From an uncultured Selenomonadaceae bacterium (GTDB taxonomy: Bacteria > Bacillota > Negativicutes > Selenomonadales > Selenomonadaceae), in contig CAJOGS010000011.1 of NCBI GenBank assembly GCA_905234045.1, positions 1 to 33,190 on the forward strand: DNA of 33,190 nucleotides, written 5' to 3'. Of the stretch, positions 761 to 5,495 are shown piece by piece. The notes beneath the pieces were generated by a model, which saw only the letters and a program-made list of their open reading frames with translations, did not search any database and was not told where the DNA came from. The stretch's first letter is position 1. Every line of letters begins with the position of its first letter. Position numbers and translations under genes: made by a program.

Positions 761-2398
761 TTAACTCAATTTAGGTTTAAAATTATCGCCCGTCCATTCT
801 TCCGGCATACCTTCAATTAAAATTACGGGACATTCGGCATTTTCTTTAACGAAATTTGCAACACTGCCGACGCCTTCTTTTGTGAAACCGCCAAAACCTT
901 TTGAGCCCATTATAATTGTGTCGCATTGTTCAAAATTCGCAACCTCAACAATAGTTTCGCCGGGATCTCCAACTTCTACGCGTACTTTTGCTTTAATATG
1001 GCGCGGGATAATTTCTTCCATTAATGAAGACAAAAAATTATAAGCCGCCGCGTTCAATTCGGCTGGAACGTAACCGCTTAAGCTGACTTTTTCAAACGCC
1101 GAAATTTCCTTGTCAAGTTCAACGCACATTAACAAAGTTACTCTTGCGCCGTGTTGTTCGGCGATTTTTATACCTTCAACCGCCGCTTTAAATGCTTGTC
1201 CCGAGCCGTCGGTAGGGATCAAAATATGTTGCAGTTTCGGATCTTCAGTTTTTTCAGTTTCAGAAATTTTTTCTTCAGATTCATCAGTTGCAAGAATTTC
1301 GGCGCGGCTTTTTTCAAATCTCCAACTGAATAAAATTGCAACTATTCCGATATAAACCAAAAACGCGCCGACTTCTGCGCTTATTGCCGATAAACTTGCG
1401 CCGCGTTGAATTATATCCCGCGTGAAATGAAATTGCCACGTCAAAGGGAAAATGTGCGCCAAATTTACAACCCAACCTGCTAAATGGTCAAGCGGCGAAG
1501 TTACGCCGCCGAATATAAAGCCGCCCGGTATAAATAAAATCATTCGGCTTGACGCAATACCGGGATTAGCCGCCGTCCAGCCCATAAATACGCTTAACAT
1601 TCCGATTGTCAACGCCATTAAAAATTGTATGATTAAAAATTCTGTCAGTCGTCCCGAAAAAACTAAATCGCCCCAAACTCTAAGCACTGCCAATCCTAAA
1701 AATGTTGAAACTACCAAACAAAAAATATATGGCGTCAATCGTGCGATTAAATCGAACGGCGTACCATTTTTTAAAGTTCTTTCATATCTGTTTGAAAGTC
1801 TCAAGCGCGGCACCATTCCTATTGTTGCGAATGTGAAAAACATTGCGCCGAAAAAAAATAAAAATCCTTGAGTTTGAGTATTTGAAGTTGAGCCGGCAGG
1901 ATTGAAAAGCACGCGGCTATTTAAAGTTAAACCGCCGCCACTTTCGCCGCCTGCGCTCATTGCGTTATCAATGGCAACCAATTCAGGCATTGCCTCTTTA
2001 ATATCTGCAGTTTGCGCGGTGTTGCTGTTGTCATAAAAAATTCCAATGGGCGCGGTATTTCCCGAATAACGATTTTTTTCAAGACCTTGCGGAAAATAAA
2101 TAACTGCAACAACTTTGTCTCTGTAGCAAAGTTCTTCGGGATTCACGGGCGAATTTATAATATTTTTAACTTCCATATATTCCGACGCATCAATTTTCGT
2201 TATAAGTTCGCGGCTGTATCGTGAATTATCCAAATCAATAATCGCAACCGGCGCATCCTTGCTGAAATTTCCTGACAGCATAACAGACAAAACGACGCTG
2301 ATAACCATTGCAACCATTATGCAAACTTTTTCATAAGGCATTCCCTTGCCGCTGAATAAAAATTTTAATTCGTCCAACAAAGATTTTTTCAAGCCCAT
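761..2398 (-). CDS. ABC-2 type permease fused to a C-terminal universal stress protein domain
   Basis: The 545-residue protein has two parts. Residues 1-360 form an ABC-2 permease of the YhhJ/YbhR kind: one membrane segment at about 26-42, a periplasmic region to about 177 (with VAIIDLDNSRYSREL), then segments near 178-197, 221-240, 255-273, 284-300 and 343-358. A charged linker (365-387) leads to a UspA domain at 388-530 that begins LQHILIPTDGSG. It carries GSKGFGGFTKEGVGS (498-512), an exact fit to the ATP-binding pattern G-x2-G-x9-G-S of nucleotide-binding Usp proteins. The ATG lies 8 bases after the HlyD-type gene, so the two are co-transcribed. No ABC ATPase gene is present here. Permeases of this type normally export a substrate with an ATPase and an adaptor, so the Usp domain is more likely a nucleotide sensor than the motor. 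That last point is inference. Confidence 0.85.
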   Translation of the reverse strand: MGLKKSLLDELKFLFSGKGMPYEKVCIMVAMVISVVLSVMLSGNFSKDAPVAIIDLDNSRYSRELITKIDASEYMEVKNIINSPVNPEELCYRDKVVAVIYFPQGLEKNRYSGNTAPIGIFYDNSNTAQTADIKEAMPELVAIDNAMSAGGESGGGLTLNSRVLFNPAGSTSNTQTQGFLFFFGAMFFTFATIGMVPRLRLSNRYERTLKNGTPFDLIARLTPYIFCLVVSTFLGLAVLRVWGDLVFSGRLTEFLIIQFLMALTIGMLSVFMGWTAANPGIASSRMILFIPGGFIFGGVTSPLDHLAGWVVNLAHIFPLTWQFHFTRDIIQRGASLSAISAEVGAFLVYIGIVAILFSWRFEKSRAEILATDESEEKISETEKTEDPKLQHILIPTDGSGQAFKAAVEGIKIAEQHGARVTLLMCVELDKEISAFEKVSLSGYVPAELNAAAYNFLSSLMEEIIPRHIKAKVRVEVGDPGETIVEVANFEQCDTIIMGSKGFGGFTKEGVGSVANFVKENAECPVILIEGMPEEWTGDNFKPKLS

Positions 2399-2406
2399 AT
2401 TATCAC

Positions 2407-3504
2407 CTAATCAAAATCAACGCGGACAGTTTGCCCTGCCAAAACTTCACTGTCAGGCGAAATATAAATTCTTACTTGGAACGCCGATAAATCAGCCTGT
2501 CCTTTTTCTCTGGACTGTTTTAAATCAGCGAAGCCCGGAGCTTGCGTTAAAAGTCGAATCGTGCCTTTAATTTCTTTATTGTCTGCGATTGTGCGGCAAA
2601 TAATTTCTTCGCCTTCGTGCAATTTTACGGCTTGTTCTTCAGAAACGTAAATATCATAATAAATTCGGCGCGTTTCAAGTAAAACTACGGGAACATTTGG
2701 AGAAATCATTTCACCTTGTTTGCTGAGGACGCTGATAATTTTTCCGTCTTCTGGAGCGTGTAAAGTCAAACGTTCTTTTGAAATTTCCAATTCTTTAAGT
2801 TGAATTTCCAAAGATTTTTTCTGTTGATTGAGTGCGGCAATATCATTTTCGATATTTTTAGCGGCGGCGCGTTCCTGTTCGATTGTCGGCAAGTTCAAAG
2901 AATTTGTAACGCCGTTATCGACGCCGCCCGATAAAAGCCGCTCAAGTAATTGTCTTTGATTTTGAACATTAGCCCGCGCCACGTTCAACGCCATTGTTGA
3001 ATCGTCAAGTTGAGATTTTGCTATTGCGCCTTCGTTCGCCAACGCTAATTTGCGGTTGTAATCAATTTCTGCATTTTTTAAAGTTGCCTCTGCAGAATTT
3101 AATACTGCGCGTTGTGCGTCAATTTGCCTGAAAGTTTGCTGTTCATCGTTAGCCGCTCTGAATAAATTTACATTCATATTTCCTGCCGTCGATTTTATTT
3201 GCGCGTCGAGTTGTGCAATTTGCGCCTTTAATTTTTCTATCGCCAAATTTGTATCAGTCGGATCAATTTCCATTATCACTTCGCCTGATTTTACAAATTG
3301 CCCCTCTTTTACGTTTTCGTTAATCATTCTGCCGCCTACCGAATCGAACGCCAATTTTATTTGTTCTGCTGTCAGTATGCTGTCTTTTTTTTCCACCGCC
3401 AAAATTGTTGCATCGTTGCCGGTGTACATCAGTACCAATCCGCTGATTATCAGTACTGCAATTAAAAAAATTCCTGTTTTTTGTGCTTGTTTGCGCGAGT
3501 TCAT
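2407..3504 (-). CDS. HlyD/EmrA-family membrane fusion (periplasmic adaptor) protein
   Basis: The 365-residue protein has a short cytoplasmic start, one membrane anchor (about 12-28) and a barrel/lipoyl half-motif (GGRMINENVKEGQFVKSGEV). A long alpha-helical hairpin follows (about 85-245, rich in A, Q, L, E and K), then the second half-lipoyl motif (LHAPEDGKIISVLSKQGEMI) and a C-terminal beta region ending GQTVRVDFD. This is the layout of adaptors that link an inner-membrane exporter to an outer-membrane channel, which fits a two-membrane cell. It is the first gene of a pair with the ABC-2/Usp fusion. The start is an ATG 8 bases after a GGGAGG. No outer-membrane channel gene is in the window. 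Confidence 0.85.
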   Translation of the reverse strand: MNSRKQAQKTGIFLIAVLIISGLVLMYTGNDATILAVEKKDSILTAEQIKLAFDSVGGRMINENVKEGQFVKSGEVIMEIDPTDTNLAIEKLKAQIAQLDAQIKSTAGNMNVNLFRAANDEQQTFRQIDAQRAVLNSAEATLKNAEIDYNRKLALANEGAIAKSQLDDSTMALNVARANVQNQRQLLERLLSGGVDNGVTNSLNLPTIEQERAAAKNIENDIAALNQQKKSLEIQLKELEISKERLTLHAPEDGKIISVLSKQGEMISPNVPVVLLETRRIYYDIYVSEEQAVKLHEGEEIICRTIADNKEIKGTIRLLTQAPGFADLKQSREKGQADLSAFQVRIYISPDSEVLAGQTVRVDFD

Positions 3505-3581
3505 TCAAAACTGCCTCCCTTGAAAAATCTGTCGGAAATAATTTTAACACTTTTTTTTTTTGACTGTCAAAGCAGAATAAT

Positions 3582-3840
3582 GTAGTGGGGTAGTGGGGTA
3601 GTGTGGTAGTGGTATAGTGGGGTAGTATTTAGGGGCTGTTGAAAAAGTCTGTTATCAAATTTTTTCTTATTAAACTTACTTTTCTTTGTTGCGTCCAAGA
3701 AAAAAACGCGTCGCCTGAGCCGCGCGTCCTGCGCGGCATCTTAGTTTTTCGTGCTTAGTCAACTTTTTTTACTACCGCACTATCAAACTACCAAACTACC
3801 AAACTACCAAACTATCCAACTACCGCACTACCCAACTACC
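3582..3840. repeat. Octamer hairpin repeat, arms split by a MITE-like insert
   Basis: The left arm (3582-3628) is made of units such as tagtgggg and tagtgtgg. The right arm (3771-3840) is made of complementary units such as actaccgc and actaccaa, again at about 8-base spacing. Between the arms, 3632-3770, lies ggggctgttgaaaaagtc plus a GC-rich hairpin (gccgcgcgtcctgcgcggc), which belongs to the MITE-like family. The whole 3505-3967 gap between the divergent hlyD-type and gamma-subunit genes is filled by this compound repeat and the promoter at 3841. Confidence 0.75.
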
Positions 3841-3869
3841 TTGAAATATTTTTTTATATACGATAATAT
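3841..3869 (+). promoter_or_regulatory. Candidate sigma-70 promoter of the decarboxylase gene pair
   Basis: TTGAAA (3841-3846), a 17-base spacer and TAATAT (3864-3869) lie about 100 bases before the gamma-subunit start. The match is good in an AT-rich stretch, but chance matches are common in such sequence. Confidence 0.4.
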
Positions 3870-3967
3870 TTAATAGGAATAAAAACAATTCAAATAAAGA
3901 ATTTTTATTTTATTCGCACTGTATTTAAAATATATGGAGTTTTTCATAGATGAAGGGAGATTTTTTA

Positions 3968-4348
3968 ATGTCACAACCTGTAACGACTAACCCGTTTATC
4001 ATTATGATGATAAATATGACGGTTGTTTTTATCGTGTTAGTTTCGTTGAGTGTGTTAATTAATGTAATTCACATGATTGACCCGACAAAAGAACCGGAAG
4101 TTAAAGACGCCGGCGGCGGCGATGAAGAAGTTAAAAATGAAACTGCGGCGATAGTTTCAAAACTTCAACAAAATCCTGCGCCCGCGCCTGTGATTGAGGA
4201 AGGCATTTCGCCTGAAGTTATTGCGGCAATTTCGGCGGCTATTGCTTGTTACGGAATTTCGGGACAAGTTCGCGCAGTTCGTGTTGTAAATCCAAATCGC
4301 TCGGCGTGGCGTCAAAACGCGCTTACCGGCGGTTTAACTAATGTTTGA
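3968..4348 (+). CDS. Na+-translocating decarboxylase gamma (delta) subunit
   Basis: The 126-residue protein has one N-terminal membrane helix (about 11-32), an acidic stretch, a Pro/Ala linker (NPAPAPVIEEG), then a helix (EVIAAISAAIACYG) and a C-terminal tail with RSAWRQNAL. This is the usual plan of the OadG/MmdD small subunit, which holds the carboxyltransferase and the membrane beta subunit together. I start at the ATG at 3968, which follows AAGGGAG by 9 bases. An upstream in-frame ATG at 3950 has no good ribosome site. The beta-subunit gene follows after 13 bases. Whether the enzyme is specific for oxaloacetate or methylmalonyl-CoA cannot be read from this subunit. Confidence 0.85.
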   Translation: MSQPVTTNPFIIMMINMTVVFIVLVSLSVLINVIHMIDPTKEPEVKDAGGGDEEVKNETAAIVSKLQQNPAPAPVIEEGISPEVIAAISAAIACYGISGQVRAVRVVNPNRSAWRQNALTGGLTNV

Positions 4349-4361
4349 GGAGGGAATTTAA

Positions 4362-5495
4362 TTGGAATTTTTTAACGCATTTTCAGTATCTCTCCAAGCA
4401 GTTTGGAATGACAGCGGCTTTTCGGCTTTTACCGTCGGTAACGGCATAATGATAGGCGTTGGACTTTTGCTTTTATATATGGCGTTCGTAAAAGAATTTG
4501 AACCGCTTTTACTTGGACCAATCGCCTTTGGTTGTATTTTGGCAAATTTCCCGAATACAGGATTTTTTGGCGATGAAATGAACGTTATGCAAGCCATTCG
4601 ATACGGCATTAATTATGAAATTTTCCCGCCGTTAATTTTCTTGGGAATCGGCGCAATGACTGACTTTGGACCTTTGCTTGCAAGACCTTCAACATTAATG
4701 TTGGGCGCGGCGGCTCAAATTGGCGTATTCGTTGCACTTGCAGGCGCAATGATTGTCGGCTTTGACATTAAAGAGGCGGCGGCAATAGGAATTATCGGCG
4801 GGGCTGACGGTCCTACTTCGATTTATCTTTCAATCAAACTTGCTCCGCACTTACTCGGCGCAATAGCGGTTGCGGCGTATACTTATATGTCACTCGTTCC
4901 AATGATTCAGCCGCCAATTATGAAGGCGTTGACAAGTCAAAAAGAACGTGAAGTTGTTATGACTGAACTTAGACAAGTAACAAAATTTGAGCGCGTAGTT
5001 TTCCCAATCGTTGTAACAATTTTCATCAGCTTGTTACTTCCGCCAATCGCTGCATTGTTGGGAATGTTGATGCTCGGTAATTTGTTCCGTGAAAGCGGCG
5101 TTACCGACAGACTTTCAGACACTTCACAAAATGCACTTTGTAACATTGTCACAATCTTTTTGGCAACGGGTACAGGTATGACGATGAACGCGGACGACTT
5201 CTTGAGAGCGGACACATTGTTAATTATTTTTCTCGGACTTGTAGCATTTATGGGCGGTACTGCCGGCGGCGTTATTTTCGGTAAATTTATGTGCCGTTTG
5301 AGCGGTTGGAAAGTCAATCCTTTAATCGGCTCGGCGGGCGTTTCAGCTGTTCCAATGGCGGCGCGTGTCAGTCAAATTGTCGGTATGAAATCTAAACCCG
5401 GCAACTATTTATTAATGCATGCAATGGGACCAAATGTAGCCGGTGTTATAGGTACGGCGGTTGCGGCGGGTACAATGCTTGCAATGCTGAAGTAG
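4362..5495 (+). CDS. Na+-translocating decarboxylase beta subunit (OadB/MmdB family)
   Basis: This 377-residue polytopic protein is the Na+ channel subunit of biotin-dependent decarboxylases, coupling decarboxylation of a carboxybiotin to Na+ export. Signature stretches are GGADGPTSIYLSIKLAPHLL (about residue 147 on), YMSLVPMIQPPIMKAL, and the C-terminal SAVPMAARVSQ and MGPNVAGVIGTAVAAG. The start is a TTG with GAGGAGGG seven bases upstream. The pair lacks the carboxyltransferase alpha subunit and the biotin carrier, which must be elsewhere. The neighbouring fumarate reductase operon suggests a role in succinate/propionate metabolism, but the substrate is unproved. The TAG stop is the first unit of an octamer repeat. 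Confidence 0.93.
   Translation: MEFFNAFSVSLQAVWNDSGFSAFTVGNGIMIGVGLLLLYMAFVKEFEPLLLGPIAFGCILANFPNTGFFGDEMNVMQAIRYGINYEIFPPLIFLGIGAMTDFGPLLARPSTLMLGAAAQIGVFVALAGAMIVGFDIKEAAAIGIIGGADGPTSIYLSIKLAPHLLGAIAVAAYTYMSLVPMIQPPIMKALTSQKEREVVMTELRQVTKFERVVFPIVVTIFISLLLPPIAALLGMLMLGNLFRESGVTDRLSDTSQNALCNIVTIFLATGTGMTMNADDFLRADTLLIIFLGLVAFMGGTAGGVIFGKFMCRLSGWKVNPLIGSAGVSAVPMAARVSQIVGMKSKPGNYLLMHAMGPNVAGVIGTAVAAGTMLAMLK

Follow-up and report, generated by a model that had tools for sequence, protein, structure and literature searches.

A putative HlyD-coupled ABC-2-fold exporter with a fused universal stress protein domain and no ABC ATPase gene in its operon

Universal stress proteins (Usps) are widespread, and to our knowledge few have a known target. 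Usps are on record in KdpD, Na+/H+ antiporters, Cl- channels and amino acid permeases, and ABC-2 permeases are not listed among these membrane proteins (PMC8214093). Two Usps have been linked to transporters in other ways. TeaD modulates the TRAP transporter TeaABC of Halomonas elongata (PMC9006882), and Rv2623 of Mycobacterium tuberculosis binds the exporter Rv1747, with inhibition or negative regulation proposed (PMC5549992). Attachment of a Usp to a membrane protein and Usp control of an exporter are already known, and the pairing with an ABC-2 permease would be the new element at the locus described here. In the open-licence literature, no report of an ABC-2/Usp fusion was found, which is weak evidence of absence, and nothing to the point on ABC-2 exporters without an ATPase.

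The whole stretch of DNA analyzed, referred to below as the window, comprises 33,190 nucleotides from an uncultured Selenomonadaceae bacterium. The features of the locus are as follows.

761..2398, minus strand: fused permease-Usp gene, a single ATG-started open reading frame (ORF) of 545 residues
1271..2398, minus strand: ABC-2 permease part, residues 1–376, from Pfam ABC2_membrane_3, the AlphaFold2 model, fold match and hydropathy
1736..1819, minus strand: TM2-TM3 cytoplasmic loop, residues 194–221, in which the ExExG[TS] motif is missing
1232..1303, minus strand: acidic linker 3' of TM6, residues 366–389, with partly low model confidence
815..1231, minus strand: Usp domain, residues 390–528, from Pfam Usp and structure matches
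863..907, minus strand: predicted nucleotide-binding motif GSKGFGGFTKEGVGS, of the form G-x2-G-x9-G-S
2407..3504, minus strand: HlyD-type periplasmic adaptor of 365 residues, directly upstream of the fused gene
2403..2408, minus strand: Shine-Dalgarno-like AGGTGA, 4 nt before the permease ATG and overlapping the HlyD stop codon

The preliminary description had placed the permease and the Usp in one clean frame, and this holds: within the single ORF, both domains score above the curated Pfam cut-offs, ABC2_membrane_3 over residues 27–357 (E=1.6e-26, 93.7 bits against a cut-off of 31.6) and Usp (PF00582) over residues 390–528 (E=1.7e-20, 74.4 bits against 24). The HlyD partner gene that it named is also present, on the same strand and separated from the fused gene by 8 bp. 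The best NCBIfam model for the permease is that of the permease part of RbbA, with a score far below its cut-off. TIGR03061 and TIGR03062, which describe the ABC-2-like YhgE/Pip family, had no match in the window protein and gave weak, sub-cut-off matches only, in tandem-permease proteins. Divergently upstream of the HlyD gene, at 3950–5495, the window encodes gamma/delta-like and beta subunits of a sodium-pumping decarboxylase. The intergenic region at 3560–3860 contains runs such as gtagtggggtagtg and actaccaaactacc that form a dispersed repeat, with 69 full or partial matches in the genome, including the window copy.

The AlphaFold2 model (mean pLDDT 83.8, pTM 0.62) consists of an amphipathic N-terminal helix, TM1, a periplasmic alpha/beta domain (approximately residues 41–171), TM2–TM6, a poorly ordered linker and a Usp fold; hydropathy also gives six transmembrane segments in the permease part. 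The membrane part matches the membrane domains of ABCH-9C, ABCG2 and ABCA in fold, with Z of about 17–19. The best fold match of the Usp part is TeaD (3hgm, Z=19.9), which is also its nearest solved structure by sequence (E=2.6e-9). Because the N-terminus and the TM2-TM3 loop are positively charged, both are assigned to the cytosol and, with them, the C-terminal Usp. The model and the charge pattern together thus predict that the Usp lies on the cytosolic side, directly after TM6. With this modest pTM, the orientation of the domains relative to each other is uncertain.

Homologues were searched for in 189 genomes of Selenomonadaceae, the family of the window; the named relatives are uncultured members of this family, mostly ruminant-derived. 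Fused homologues were readable in 31 genomes (window included), all belonging to the window's own genus and sharing 60–84% identity. In other genera, the matching region is divided between two ORFs, one for the permease and one for the Usp. Of the 99 homologous loci compared, 31 carry the fusion. At another 52, the Usp is the immediately following gene in the same orientation, and the remaining 16, including one (L094) where the contig ends, have no adjacent Usp; the Usp is thereby fused or adjacent to the permease in 83 of the 99. The unfused loci examined carry a MarR-type regulator gene 5' of HlyD, with a MarR match at 52 of 69 unfused loci and at none of the fused loci. Most fused relatives have HlyD immediately 5' of the fused gene in the same orientation; at some loci of the fused genus it is displaced, lying either on the other strand or some 3 kb off, with the permease and Usp still joined.

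A cultured bacterium, Selenomonas ruminantium TAM6421, carries the unfused operon on plasmid pSRC1 (SELR_RS16485-RS16470), annotated as MarR regulator, biotin/lipoyl-binding protein, ABC transporter permease and universal stress protein. The operon (L263; NC_017078.1 168218-171565) adjoins a putative sulfate exporter gene on this 285-kb plasmid. Its HlyD, permease and Usp are orthologous to those of the fused locus, in the same order and without an ATPase; however, the permease and Usp are separate, and the upstream MarR gene is one not found at the fused loci. Judged from these gene orders, the ancestral arrangement is one of separate genes, MarR - HlyD - permease - Usp.

The reading that we prefer, with a probability of roughly 0.5, is that of an HlyD-coupled exporter of the ABC-2 fold that is modulated by a cytosolic Usp and probably powered by something other than an ABC ATPase. 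The gene product would be the inner-membrane part of an HlyD-coupled efflux system with an ABC-2 (type V) fold, and its cytosolic C-terminal Usp would be a nucleotide-responsive modulator of the permease. It would descend from a MarR-regulated HlyD - permease - Usp operon in which the last two genes became fused in one genus of Selenomonadaceae. We infer export as the direction of transport, a homodimer, probably without an ABC ATPase, as the working form of the permease, an ion gradient or the substrate's own gradient as the energy source, and nucleotide binding and regulation as the properties of the Usp; the substrate may be a toxic small molecule, the efflux of which would fit MarR control of the ancestral operon.

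A complete nucleotide site in the Usp, another element of the preliminary description, is present in the window protein, where GSKGFGGFTKEGVGS matches G-x2-G-x9-G-S with PTDGSGQA upstream, but it is not universal. PTDGS is found in all fused proteins, whereas G-x2-G-x9-G-S is complete in 22 of the 31 and deviates in nine. The 22 include G088 and G089 (loci L025 and L022), where the motif is visible beyond an N-run; an apparent frameshift or decay of these two Usps was traced to this run, which lies in the assembly inside the Usp part. The 9-residue loop differs from the FRSLLMGS type seen in many adjacent Usps. Nucleotide binding by the window Usp is plausible from its sequence, and an obligatory dependence on ATP is unlikely because nine fused proteins deviate from the motif. 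The motif sequence alone decides little, since TeaD binds ATP although its motif is listed as degenerate (PMC3673472), and the ligand need not be ATP, since the Usp domain of KdpD binds c-di-AMP (PMC4686210). In 15 of the genomes with a Usp-less locus, those that were checked, no other Usp of more than 42% identity was found, and relocation of the Usp elsewhere in these genomes was rejected on this basis. Together with the 16 of 99 loci that have no adjacent Usp, this result implies that the exporter can work without it; a Usp missing from about one-sixth of the loci fits a modulator rather than a motor.

The same variability would also suit a Usp that is a structural or stabilizing appendix without nucleotide-dependent control, joined to the permease by a selectively neutral chance event between two translationally coupled genes. 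Neighboring genes with small gaps fuse easily, and both the altered motif of the nine fused proteins and the Usp-less loci are in keeping with such an appendix. We regard this alternative as rather unlikely, as the Usp shows the marks of constraint. In ten pairs, dN/dS is 0.01–0.11 for the permease and 0.04–0.19 for the Usp, with synonymous changes exceeding non-synonymous ones by about five- to ninety-fold in both halves alike, a pattern which indicates that purifying selection acts on both. Furthermore, PTDGS is invariant among the fused proteins and the full site is retained in most of them, the Usp is kept in most genera, and it stays fused where HlyD has moved. By analogy with TeaD-TeaABC, Rv2623-Rv1747 and KdpD, control of transport by the nucleotide or stress state, which the preliminary description had suggested, appears to be the best reading of the Usp.

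No ABC ATPase gene adjoins the fused gene in the window, as the preliminary description had stated. The HlyD-permease-Usp operon contains no ATPase gene at the homologous Selenomonadaceae loci, to which one genome (G113, see below) is an exception by position only, and the loci of two distant relatives, which belong to the same phylum but to other families, comprise a regulator, HlyD and a single permease, with neither ATPase nor Usp. By this comparison, the lack of an ATPase in the operon is ancestral to the permease family and unlinked to the fusion. Several ATPases near the loci of relatives were considered and set aside: they are of ProV/MlaF-like (L079), amino-acid importer (L117), FecE-like (L051) and PstB (L258) types, and for those at L049, L098, L104 and L053, NCBIfam gave no strong match and the genes are not part of the HlyD-permease-Usp unit.

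The TM2-TM3 loop provides a second line of evidence. The motif E-x-E-x-G-(T/S) is present in this loop in YhhJ, RbbA, YbhS and YbhR of E. coli and in three ATPase-linked permeases from relatives. Among ABC2_membrane_3 permeases of at least 330 residues, it was found in 40 of 40 that are ATPase-linked, in none of 42 that are ATPase-less, and in none of the 99 members of the permease family described here; the one apparent exception adjoins an unrelated PstB gene. The Fisher value of 2e-24 overstates this separation, since the loci are related and often paired per genome, and 20 stretches were chosen mostly for tandem pairs. Ten permease genes (at L215, L218, L225, L228 and L229) seemed at first to have the motif without an ATPase, but their ATPases were found just outside the first stretch. 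The association does not extend to all ABC-2 permeases, as a 229-residue ATPase-linked permease (G000 C45) lacks the motif. In ABCG transporters, the TM2-TM3 loop holds a coupling helix that touches the nucleotide-binding domain (PMC7756502), and by analogy we infer that ExExG[TS] makes the same contact in bacterial permeases. Tandem long ABC2_membrane_3 permeases without an ATPase in the examined stretches are also found in many Negativicutes (L233-L249, L251, L187 and L195), all of them without ExExG[TS]; their sequences possibly define a wider class of ATPase-free ABC-2-fold exporters.

The main rival to an ATPase-free exporter supposes an ABC exporter that is powered in trans by an ATPase from another part of the genome, for which a lone DrrA-type ATPase conserved in the genus is the candidate. 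The permease has the fold of an ABC membrane domain, and all of its solved relatives have an ATPase. In G113, the fused gene is followed by a terminator-like stem-loop and, at a distance of 120 bp, by the start of a lone DrrA/RbbA-type ATPase gene with no adjoining permease. Homologues at least 73% identical to this ATPase are widespread in the genus (46 of 66 genomes), and at the 14 lone-ATPase loci that were read, no ABC-2 permease was recognized alongside. As a DrrA-type ATPase needs a partner, the fused permease is a candidate for this role. Most of the lone-ATPase loci have a LysR-type regulator on one side and a prephenate-dehydratase-like gene on the other, as judged from the sequence starts rather than from a family search. 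Lone DrrA-type ATPase genes lie, for example, at L020 2870-3580, at G079 C10:22829-23530 and in other genomes of the genus. The adjacency in G113, however, is confined to one species, with the stem-loop in between. Moreover, the ATPase is present without the fused gene in, for example, the well-assembled genomes G075 and G077 (94% complete), and was not found in G063, which is 94% complete and has the fused gene. In the window genome, its nearest relative (63%) adjoins a short DrrB-like permease, homologues of which are present in 11 of 11 genomes tested and which would be a more natural partner of the ATPase. Finally, the fused family has no ExExG[TS] motif, and nowhere in this family does the operon contain an ATPase. 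An ATPase in trans is therefore a doubtful, if serious, alternative to the ATPase-free exporter.

A bolder extension of the ATPase-free reading is that long ABC-2-fold exporters shed their ATPase and became gradient-driven, and that in the present family a pair of nucleotide-binding Usps has moved into the position below the membrane domain that the ATPase pair usually occupies, where it would gate rather than drive transport, in a change from ATP-powered to ATP-sensed export. We offer this as a speculation that is probably wrong.

The origin of the fusion can be traced within the family. In a tree built from the permease part, one starred set contains the fused proteins plus two unfused ones from the same genus, and the fused or unfused state requires two changes, compared to 26 in shuffles. 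In the same-genus genomes G068 and G069, the permease is without a Usp, which may reflect loss or primary absence; the tree leaves their branching relative to the fused set unsettled. The fusion may have a single origin. The fused Usp derives from the Usp of the operon, since the window Usp shares up to 60% identity with adjacent Usps of other genera and 28% with the other Usp of its own genome. A KG-x-P-x-(D/E)W-like C-terminal tail is common to many fused and adjacent Usps. Sequence comparison thus indicates a fusion of two adjacent ancestral genes that is specific to one uncultured genus of Selenomonadaceae. The preliminary description had envisaged separate genes in relatives, joined here by a sequencing error: separate genes are indeed found in other genera, but an assembly or sequencing artefact deserves practically no credit, as 31 species, sequenced in several projects as far as titles are given, share the same fusion, far beyond chance for a one-frame architecture, and a coding-type substitution pattern runs across both halves.

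With the Usp fused to one permease, the fusion itself names the target of the Usp. By analogy with known Usp-transporter pairs, the fusion probably lets the energy or stress state of the cell adjust the exporter directly, and the same permease-Usp pair is available unfused in the cultured S. ruminantium, where Usp control of transport is directly testable. The loop motif was a side finding that may matter as much as the fusion: in all cases examined, one cytoplasmic-loop motif distinguished the long ABC2_membrane_3 permeases that have an ATPase gene from those that have none, and this division suggests that some ABC-2-fold exporters form a class in which ATPase docking has been lost.

Among known systems, YhiI-RbbA-YhhJ and YbhG-YbhF-YbhS-YbhR of E. 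coli resemble the locus in having an HlyD adaptor and an ABC2_membrane_3-type permease. They differ from it in that each includes an ATPase of its own and two permease domains and carries the ExExG[TS] motif, and they share 14–18% identity with the window permease; RbbA-YhhJ-YhiI and YbhFSR-G combine two permease domains with a double ATPase, whereas the window operon has one permease and no ATPase. The HlyD - ABC2 - ABC2 loci of Negativicutes also have ABC-2-fold permeases without an ATPase gene or the loop motif; they differ in having two different permeases (14–17% identity in the pairs compared) and no Usp was seen in them. On the Usp side, TeaD is likewise transporter-linked, is the closest solved Usp by both sequence and fold, and itself binds ATP and modulates transport, but TeaABC is a TRAP importer and TeaD a separate polypeptide. 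Rv2623-Rv1747 resembles the proposed model in that a Usp acts on an ABC exporter, although there a tandem Usp acts in trans via an FHA domain and Rv1747 has its own nucleotide-binding domain. KdpD, the antiporters, the Cl- channels and the amino acid permeases carry a Usp on a membrane protein, as here, with other membrane folds.
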